Shown: positions 19,048 through 21,700 of the stretch, piece by piece
How positions within the stretch are numbered: the stretch's first letter is position 1
Layout of the letters: the number at the start of each line of letters is the position of its first letter
Made by a program: the position numbers and the translations under genes
Source: Halalkalicoccus subterraneus
GTDB taxonomy: Archaea > Halobacteriota > Halobacteria > Halobacteriales > Halalkalicoccaceae
Length of the DNA stretch: 50,634 nucleotides
Direction of reading: 5' to 3'
Assembly (NCBI RefSeq): GCF_003697815.1
Contig: NZ_RDQG01000047.1
Span: 1 to 50,634 of the forward strand
The notes under the pieces: generated by a model
The model's database searches: none
Told to the model about the DNA's origin: nothing
What the model saw: only the letters and a program-made list of their open reading frames with translations

Positions 19048-20040
19048 TTACTCCTCGGCGTCGATATCCAGGTCGCCTTCGAGCTCCTCGACGATCTCGT
19101 CGGCGTCGACGTCGGCGTCCTCGAGCGCTTCCTCGACGCCGCCACCGCCGCCCATGCCGCCCATCATACCGCCCATACCGCCCATCATACCGCCGCCCTC
19201 GATGGTCTCCTGGATGATGACCCGATCGAGGTCCAGGCGGTCCATCAGGTCCTGGGCGATCTGCTGTTTCTGGAACATCCACTGCTGGTTCATCGTCAGC
19301 TCCGGAGTGGCCTCGATGTACAGCGTCTCCTTCTCGACGACCTCGGTTTCGGTCTCCGGCTCGGCGTCTTCGCCGTCTGCTTGAGACTCCTCCGGAGTCT
19401 CTCCGTCCGCATCCTCCTCGGGTTCGACGACGGTCTCCTCCTCGACCTCGTCGGTTTCGACCCACATCTCGAGGTCGGCGTCGATGAACATCGAGAGCAT
19501 CCCCTTCGCGCGCTCGACGCGGTCCTCGACGACGTCGACGATCTCGTACTCGTACTCGACGTCCTCGCCCGCGAGCGGGTGGTTGAAGTCGACGCGGGCG
19601 CGCCCACCGATGACCGTTTCGACGTGGCCGTGCTGGTTGTCGATATCGACGTGAGCACCGGGATACCGGTCGTCCTCGGGGATCTTCTCGGCGCTGATCG
19701 TGCGGACCTCGTCCTCGCTGTACTCGCCGAAGGCCTCCTCGGCCGGGACGACGATGCTACCCGAATCGCCGGCCTCCTTGCCCTCGATGTCCTCTTCGAC
19801 GGTCTCGAAGAGGTGGCCCGCGCCCAGCGCGATCACTCGGGGTTCGATGTTTCGCTCCTCGACATCGACACCCTCGTCCTCGGCGATCTCCTGGTCCGTG
19901 GTGTCGACGAGCTGGTCGCCATCGACCGTGCGCGCCGTGTAAGCGAGCCGGACGAAATCGCCGTCGCCGAGCCCGTCCTGCGTCTCTTCGGTTTCGGTCT
20001 CGGCATCTTCGGCTGCGTCTGGCGCTTCTTCGTCACTCAT
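19048..20040 (-). CDS. FKBP-type peptidyl-prolyl isomerase (SlyD-like)
   Basis: A 330-residue FKBP-fold prolyl isomerase and chaperone, long for the SlyD-like archaeal class. The FKBP core starts at DGDFVRLAYTARTVDGDQLVDTTDQ, contains the insert-in-flap domain (ISAEKIPEDDRYPGAHVDI), and DFNHPLAGEDVEYEYEIVDV. An acidic linker (EEETVVEPEEDADGETPEESQADGEDAEPETETEV) leads to a C-terminal domain with GGGMMGGMGGMMGGMGGGGG (Gly/Met hinge) and a helical end, VEEALEDADVDADEIVEEL. I start at ATG 20040; an in-frame extension to 20268 runs through the neighbour and is not credible. Likely cytoplasmic. Confidence 0.93.
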   Translation of the reverse strand: MSDEEAPDAAEDAETETEETQDGLGDGDFVRLAYTARTVDGDQLVDTTDQEIAEDEGVDVEERNIEPRVIALGAGHLFETVEEDIEGKEAGDSGSIVVPAEEAFGEYSEDEVRTISAEKIPEDDRYPGAHVDIDNQHGHVETVIGGRARVDFNHPLAGEDVEYEYEIVDVVEDRVERAKGMLSMFIDADLEMWVETDEVEEETVVEPEEDADGETPEESQADGEDAEPETETEVVEKETLYIEATPELTMNQQWMFQKQQIAQDLMDRLDLDRVIIQETIEGGGMMGGMGGMMGGMGGGGGVEEALEDADVDADEIVEELEGDLDIDAEE

Positions 20041-20113
20041 ACCACAGACGACAGCCGTTCGTGCCTTAAGAACAACGTTTCGTGCCCGTCGCAGGCACGA
20101 GCTATCGACGGGG

Positions 20114-20881
20114 TTAGCTCTCCTGGTATGTTTCGATCGCCGCTTCGATGTCCTCGTCGTCGATGTCGCCGTTCTTGTACGCATCGAGGACCGCGTCCAT
20201 GTCCTCCTGGTCGATCTCACCCTCTCGGTATGCGCCGAACGCCTTCTCGATGTCCTCCTCGTCGACATCGCCGTCTGCGTACGCTTCGAGGGCCTTCTTG
20301 ACCGTTTTCCGGTCGATATCCTCCTCGGCGTGGAAGGCGATCTTGCCGTCCTCGTCGATGACGTAGATCGTCACCGAGGCCTCGATGCCGTACTTCTCGA
20401 GGACGTCGTCGTCACACGTCGCGTGGTCCCAGTCGCCGCCGTACTTCTCGTGGAACTCCTCGAGGTCCTTCTTCGAGACCGCCGTGTTGGAGTTGATCGT
20501 GAGCACGTACGCGCGGTCGCCGTACTCCTCGTGGAGGTCGACCAGCGTCTTCGAGTAGGACTTGCCCTCCTCGGTCCTGATGTCGGCGAACAGCACCACG
20601 GTCGGTTTGTCCTTCGCCTCGACGGTTATCGTCTCCCCGTCCGGCGTTTCGACGTCGACTTTCGGCGCGTCGTCGCCGTTTTTCGGTTTCTCGTCTTCCT
20701 TCTTCTCGTTCTCCTTTTTCTCGTCTTCCTTCTCCTCGCCGTTGTTGCCGTCCTTCGAGTCGTCGCCCGTATCGTCGGGGTCTTCGTCCGGATCTTCCTC
20801 GCTTCCGAGACAGCCGGCCATACTCGCGAGTGCTATACCACCGGACAGCTGGATCATACGTCGACGGTTAATCTCTGACAT
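20114..20881 (-). CDS. Tat lipoprotein, thioredoxin-like fold without CxxC, with three C-terminal 17-residue repeats
   Basis: A 255-residue extracellular protein. The signal INRRRMIQLSGGIALASMAGC has a twin-arginine motif and lipobox Cys24. Residues 27-75 form a highly charged D/E/K linker. Residues 76-200 look like the TlpA/SCO1 thioredoxin fold (KPTVVLFADIRTEEGKSYSKTLVDLHEEYGDRAYVLTIN ... VTIYVIDEDGKIAFHAE), but the usual WCxxC is ADIRTEEGK, so there is no redox pair; the only Cys in the mature domain is C156. Residues 202-252 are three consecutive 17-residue repeats ending in AY/TY. It may be a non-redox scaffold or ion-binding protein; that is inference. Confidence 0.85.
   Translation of the reverse strand: MSEINRRRMIQLSGGIALASMAGCLGSEEDPDEDPDDTGDDSKDGNNGEEKEDEKKENEKKEDEKPKNGDDAPKVDVETPDGETITVEAKDKPTVVLFADIRTEEGKSYSKTLVDLHEEYGDRAYVLTINSNTAVSKKDLEEFHEKYGGDWDHATCDDDVLEKYGIEASVTIYVIDEDGKIAFHAEEDIDRKTVKKALEAYADGDVDEEDIEKAFGAYREGEIDQEDMDAVLDAYKNGDIDDEDIEAAIETYQES
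20126..20278 (-). repeat. Three tandem 51-bp units encoding 17-residue acidic repeats
   Basis: The units read ADGDVDEEDIEKAFGAY, REGEIDQEDMDAVLDAY and KNGDIDDEDIEAAIETY (residues 202-218, 219-235, 236-252). The consensus is x-x-G-(D/E)-(V/I)-D-x-(E/D)-D-(I/M)-x5-(A/T)-Y. The preceding EEDIDRKTVKKALEAY looks like a degenerate 16-residue first copy. The G-D-I-D-x-E-D core resembles a calcium-binding loop followed by a helix, like half EF-hand or dockerin segments, but the period is shorter. Confidence 0.85.
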
Positions 20882-21148: not shown

Positions 21149-21700
21149 ATGTACGAGGTCGAAATGAAACTCCGGGCCGAGCACGAACGACTCCACGAGA
21201 GGCTCGAACGGCGGGGCGCAAACCGGATCGATGCCGTCACCCAGCGCGACACGTACTACGACGCACCGACGCGCGATTTCGCAGAAACGGACGAGGCACT
21301 ACGGATCCGACGCGAGACGCGCGACGGCGAGACGCGCGCGACGCTCACCTATAAGGGTCCCCTCGTCGGTGAGACGTCGAAAACGCGCGAGGAGCGCGAG
21401 ACGGATCTGAGTGACGGCGACGTGATGGGGTCGATCCTCGATTCGCTCGGCTTTTCGGCCGTCGAGACCGTCGAGAAGCGCCGCGAACGTTTCTCGCTGG
21501 AGGGATACACAGTGACACTCGATACGGTCACCGATCTGGGAACGTTCGTCGAGATCGAAACCGAAGCCATCGAGTCTGATCTCGACGCCGCGCGCAAGGG
21601 AGTCGGTCGGACCGTCGAGTCGCTCGGACTAGATCCCGCCGACGAGATCCGTACCTCCTATCTCGAACTCCTGATCGAAGACGGCCACGATCGGGAGTGA
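21149..21700 (+). CDS. CYTH-domain protein, class IV adenylate cyclase type (CyaB-like)
   Basis: A 183-residue CYTH triphosphate-tunnel protein. The N-terminal ExExK signature is E3-V-E5-M-K7 in MYEVEMKLRA. Further tunnel residues are in DTYYDAPTRDFAETDEALRIRRE, ATLTYKGP, VEKRRERF and LDTVTDLGTFVEIETEA. Family members are annotated as class IV adenylate cyclase (CyaB) or as thiamine triphosphatase and other triphosphate hydrolases; sequence alone does not separate them. It stands alone upstream of metK. Confidence 0.92.
   Translation: MYEVEMKLRAEHERLHERLERRGANRIDAVTQRDTYYDAPTRDFAETDEALRIRRETRDGETRATLTYKGPLVGETSKTREERETDLSDGDVMGSILDSLGFSAVETVEKRRERFSLEGYTVTLDTVTDLGTFVEIETEAIESDLDAARKGVGRTVESLGLDPADEIRTSYLELLIEDGHDRE

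Follow-up and report, generated by a model that had tools for sequence, protein, structure and literature searches.

The window analysed here, 50,634 nucleotides of a Halalkalicoccus subterraneus contig, encodes a predicted membrane-tethered lipoprotein in which a putative thioredoxin-like fold lacks its redox site and continues into a C-terminal array of 17-residue repeats (Table 1). We favour the following reading. In the ancestor of the family, a thiol-disulfide oxidoreductase of the ResA/TlpA type would have lost its CxxC motif and its cis-proline. Within Halalkalicoccus, the stretch of the gene that codes for the terminal helix would then have undergone tandem reduplication. The result would be two or three added 17-residue turn-helix units, forming a short acidic helical array. 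To this whole model, comprising ancestral loss, a redox-inert tethered scaffold and later reduplication, we give a probability of about 0.45, a little short of even odds. The lipoprotein with its tail is a small, genus-limited variant of a known lipoprotein type, not a new system. A literature search returned nothing on this lipoprotein.

Table 1. Features of the lipoprotein gene and its immediate neighbours (positions in the window).
Feature	Position	Strand	Basis
Lipoprotein gene, 255 aa	20881..20114 incl. stop	-	ORF reading
Tat-type signal peptide, residues 1-23 (RRRMIQL ... MAG), then lipobox Cys24	20813..20881	-	sequence
Charged linker, residues 25-67	20681..20809	-	net charge -13 in 43 residues
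Thioredoxin-like (ResA/TlpA/AhpC-TSA) core, residues 68-187	20321..20680	-	Pfam, PDB profile, hhalign
Degenerate CxxC site, T-E-E-G, residues 103-106	20564..20575	-	alignment to ResA and orthologues
Cys156, only Cys besides the predicted lipid-modified one	20414..20416	-	sequence, orthologue alignment
Val170, replacing the thioredoxin cis-proline	20372..20374	-	ResA alignment
Unit 0, native terminal helix of the fold, residues 188-204, DIDRKTVKKALEAYADG	20270..20320	-	homology to C-terminal helix of tailless orthologues
Tail unit 1, residues 205-221, DVDEEDIEKAFGAYREG	20219..20269	-	repeat comparison, models
Tail unit 2, residues 222-238, EIDQEDMDAVLDAYKNG	20168..20218	-	unit missing from two-unit orthologues in alignment
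Tail unit 3, residues 239-255, DIDDEDIEAAIETYQES	20117..20167	-	repeat comparison, models
FKBP-type peptidyl-prolyl isomerase-like gene, downstream, co-directional neighbour	19048..20040	-	named from its sequence
CYTH-like gene, upstream, divergent neighbour, syntenic marker	21149..21700	+	named from its sequence

Orthologues were recognised by their locus. The lipoprotein gene is flanked by the CYTH-like and FKBP-like genes, with a gene of the 18421 type and pyrB/pyrI further out. This CYTH-lipoprotein-FKBP order recurs in six Halalkalicoccus genomes, including that of the window, and, within the reach of the contigs, in the sister genus. Since they occupy the same locus, we regard the relatives flanked in this way as true orthologues. 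One genome of the same genus (G050) has a locus identical to that of the window; in the seventh genus genome (G073, 71% complete) no full match to the lipoprotein was found. A scan of genome contigs gave Halalkalicoccus paucihalophilus as the only close relative. Adjacency to the FKBP-like gene is conserved in the family and belongs to its general synteny. Hence, it provides no evidence for a shared pathway. A signal peptide was not evident in the FKBP-like neighbour. Long open reading frames also run antisense on the + strand, opposite the FKBP gene (19381-20301) and opposite the lipoprotein gene (20330-20878), and are likewise present at some orthologous loci. They probably arise as a side effect of G+C-rich codon use.

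As judged from sequence profiles, the core is a thioredoxin fold of the ResA/TlpA type (AhpC-TSA superfamily), with homology over the core. The window protein matches Pfam AhpC-TSA above the gathering score (28.7 versus 26 bits, E 1.4e-6). A profile of nine syntenic orthologues, no member of which has CxxC, matches ResA structures in the PDB at E 2.5e-6. When the orthologue profile was compared with canonical CxxC haloarchaeal homologues using hhalign, the probability was 99.4% (E 2.4e-21, 132 columns). Structure models cover the window protein and the L032 orthologue only; both were built from two-sequence alignments, with mean pLDDT of 54.6 and 51.8. In these low-confidence models, the element order is thioredoxin-like (beta-beta-(beta)-alpha-beta-alpha-beta-beta-alpha). 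ResA, Etrx, StoA, TlpA and peroxiredoxins head the Foldseek results, all at E >1e-3. It is the profiles that carry our assignment of the fold, not these weak models. A deiodinase-like NCBIfam match (E 2.4e-5, far under its cut-off) was discarded as generic thioredoxin-fold similarity.

The CxxC region of the window protein reads A-D-I-R-T-E-E-G-K. Here, T103 aligns with the first cysteine of the ResA CxxC and G106 with the second. CxxC is absent from all nine syntenic orthologues across the family, and valine is invariant among them at the cis-proline site; more distant homologues mostly retain CxxC. Thus, the window protein has neither hallmark of a thiol-disulfide oxidoreductase. The position of a peroxidatic cysteine holds T103 in the window protein and S, N or H in orthologues. 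The copper site of SCO1/SenC, CxxxC with a distal histidine, is not present either. The site has no cysteine, no histidine was seen by eye in the loop equivalent to that of the SCO1 distal His (Ala168 region), and the window protein does not match the SCO1-SenC Pfam family. Cysteines elsewhere vary. C156 is shared with the sister genus, which has cysteines at positions 156 and 173, and is absent from the other tailed orthologues. No cysteine column is conserved, so dithiol chemistry has been lost family-wide. Because tailless syntenic orthologues also lack CxxC, this loss predates the tail and is uncoupled from it. Among other haloarchaeal TlpA-like proteins, L104 (YEPC) and L099 (CPTG) have each lost one active-site cysteine independently. 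Hence, loss of the dithiol is recurrent in the haloarchaeal TlpA-like group.

A twin-arginine signal and a lipobox cysteine, the marks of haloarchaeal Tat lipoproteins, can both be read in the window protein (lipobox MAGC, C24) and are kept in all complete orthologues. This supports the prediction that the lipoprotein lies outside the cytoplasm, tethered to the membrane. Among tailed orthologues, the signal peptide has 93% mean identity and a pN/pS of 0.13. The linker, presumably disordered, has 51% mean identity among orthologues and varies in length. Many full-protein matches across the order were rejected, since they comprised the signal and acidic linker alone (residues 1-80). A sequence-only reading of this DNA had proposed a thioredoxin fold resembling TlpA or SCO1, the lost CxxC and the Tat signal with lipobox. 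The signal, the lost CxxC and a thioredoxin-like fold, of the ResA/TlpA type, hold, and the cis-proline proves to be gone as well. It had also described a charged linker of 50 residues, which we find to be 43 residues long. Its view that the fold had lost its cysteines is correct for the dithiol, with C156 remaining besides the lipid cysteine. Its coupling of cysteine loss to gain of the tail finds no support, as tailless G040, G065, G081 and G089 also lack CxxC.

The three tail units have a period of exactly 17 residues, with pairwise identities of 35-53% in amino acids and 63-73% in nucleotides. For every pair in the window protein, none of 5000 shuffles reached the observed score, so composition does not account for the likeness of the units. 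The tail has a net charge of -18 in 51 residues. Pooled over tailed orthologues, pN/pS is 0.37 in the tail, below the 0.54 of the core, a rough comparison given uneven synonymous counts between the regions. Since its value is under 1 and under that of the core, the tail seems to be maintained by selection. Synonymous divergence itself differs between parts of the gene, with pS at 0.24 in the core and at 0.56 in the tail. The sequence-only reading had three 17-residue repeats. The exact period is confirmed; however, residues 188-204 make a fourth unit in register, and the DNA copies are not identical. The short helices that it saw in the repeats recur in both models as 12-residue helices joined by short turns, at low confidence (pLDDT 52-55).

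The tail is present in 5/7 Halalkalicoccus genomes and absent from the rest of the sampled family. Three extra units occur in the window protein and in H. paucihalophilus, two in G014, G029 and G057, and none in G040, G065, G081 and G089. In a tree of four flanking proteins, the tailed species form one clade with support of 99/99. Inside this clade, one gain, two gains or a loss of the third unit all fit the tree. No comparable tandem tail was found outside the genus among 392 genomes of the order (E 0.01). Weak tail matches in 12 other genomes (E 0.002-0.01) proved, when checked by matrix, to be either isolated chance helices or units of the SHOCT-like or WRSG type. The sequence-only reading had looked for support to an architecture conserved in several genera. 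Such support is missing, since among the genomes searched only Halalkalicoccus carries the tail. Its opposite prospect, repeats found only here, can also be set aside because five species carry the tail.

We infer, with moderate confidence, that the tail arose by reduplication of the fold's own last helix. This is the likeliest origin because the tail runs on from unit 0 without a gap and in 17-residue register. The register is gap-free in 5/5 tailed orthologues, where unit 0 has 41-59% identity to unit 1. A matrix built from tail units only was scanned over tailed, tailless and CxxC proteins. In tailed proteins, unit 0 was the best non-tail site, at 28-31 bits. The terminal helix was also the best site in tailless orthologues, at about 9-13 bits; in the two tested, 5/400 and 1/400 shuffles reached these scores. 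In CxxC homologues, the terminal helix was not the best site.

Alternatively, the thioredoxin fold may have acquired, by fusion, a recruited or convergent short helical module, SHOCT-like or of WRSG type, that serves in localisation or in contact with proteins. We consider this unlikely, yet it has points in its favour. Haloarchaeal L072, L073, L081 and L082 contain units that share the 17-residue period and have a G-x-[IV]-D/T core followed by a short helix, and L078 contains the SHOCT-like sequence YVDGDIDEDELEKEL. Modules of both kinds score 6-16 bits on the tail-unit matrix, equal to tailless terminal helices. In addition, the units are only 51-73% identical in DNA, and N-capped amphipathic helices could have converged to give the resemblance of unit 0 to the tail. 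Recruitment does not readily account for a tail whose start keeps precisely to the register of unit 0 in every tailed orthologue. Furthermore, the SHOCT score is only 10.8 bits against a cut-off of 27, so membership of that family (PF09851) was rejected, and none of the genomes sampled from the genus or the family yielded the WRSG module. The latter module, YADDDGxVxTxGLRxAIxxWRSGxIDTNLLRxxIDAWRSG, consists of two 17-residue units. It was seen in L072, L073, L081, L082 and L120-L135, mostly large proteins, and in 7/146 sampled haloarchaeal genomes, with up to 8 copies in one (G002). Two examples were scanned and matched no Pfam family above cut-off. PMC13260240 mentions a haloarchaeal 'type I dockerin', which may be this module. 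Other weak matches were attributed to helix composition. These are matches of the tail to AF0941-like, zf-HC2 and similar Pfam families, all below cut-off, and a match to the HP0242 knotted protein in the PDB (E 3e-4; two weak stretches of about 12 bits each, in a duplicated chimera).

Metal binding by the repeats, suggested by the sequence-only reading, finds no support. Calcium-binding loops of EF-hand or dockerin type would explain the acidic G-D-I-D-x-E-D core, in which virtual loop positions 5, 9 and 12 are D/E/N, D and D. However, among the positions that should supply oxygen ligands (1, 3, 5 and 12), the three loops all have tyrosine at position 3, and at position 1 they carry E, G or D. 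The EF-hand_6 family reached 14.2 bits against a cut-off of 25, in one orthologue only, and a spacing of 17 residues is too short for paired EF-hands. The tail also has no cluster of cysteine or histidine. We find such loops hardly credible, and they were rejected on position 3. It is highly improbable that the gene is a decaying relic and its repeats noise from replication slippage. Cysteines do change freely, and among tailed species conservation is lower for this gene (62-65% identity) than for any of its neighbours (68-94%). Conversely, no species has a stop inside the syntenic reading frame, pN/pS is below 1 in core and tail, and two tail units of exact period are common to all five tailed species. 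Hence, the data lean against a relic. It is also improbable, if somewhat less so, that thiol chemistry persists in the genus. Four tailed orthologues read N/S-E-K/E-C at the CxxC site and have a second cysteine where the window protein has Tyr173, on the strand that follows the cis-Pro site; both would have been lost from the window copy. Nevertheless, C156 of the window protein is instead common to the sister genus, the mature core of the G040 orthologue has zero cysteines, no cysteine column is conserved and the cis-proline is gone in all orthologues.

With CxxC and cis-proline lost, the fold would be unable to perform dithiol exchange. Under our model, the pseudo-thioredoxin would be an extracytoplasmic binding scaffold, tethered to the membrane and held off it by the acidic linker. 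The helical array would most likely enlarge or stabilise a binding or packing surface. By analogy, we weakly favour a redox-inert, membrane-tethered binding scaffold with a helical tail, and this function is a guess. More tentative than the model as a whole is the idea that serial reduplication of the terminal helix (0, 2 or 3 copies at a fixed locus in one genus) converts an inactive redox enzyme into a binding array on the surface. If true, the locus offers a compact natural example of how the last part of a globular domain can give rise to a repeat array; orthologues with no tail, two units or three occupy one and the same locus. It would also be a case of a redox enzyme fold reused without its chemistry, with a reach of one genus.

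Among known systems, ResA, TlpA and StoA (AhpC-TSA, Redoxin) have the same predicted fold and a membrane-anchored extracytoplasmic site, and the alignment is continuous over the whole core. The window protein differs in lacking CxxC and cis-proline and in having extra C-terminal helices. Pneumococcal Etrx1 and Etrx2, among the top Foldseek matches of our weak models, are likewise extracellular lipoproteins with a TlpA-like domain. Unlike the window protein, they are active oxidoreductases with CxxC. In outline, the architecture resembles that of ERp29, a redox-inactive thioredoxin fold of the secretory route with an all-helical C-terminal domain. However, ERp29 belongs to the eukaryotic ER and its helical domain is unrelated, and the likeness is one of analogy only. 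Finally, the SHOCT domain (PF09851; PMC3581485) is also a C-terminal short helix-turn-helix with a G-x-I-x-x-E-E-like turn. SHOCT is a single two-helix unit, whereas the tail described here is an array continuing a fold.
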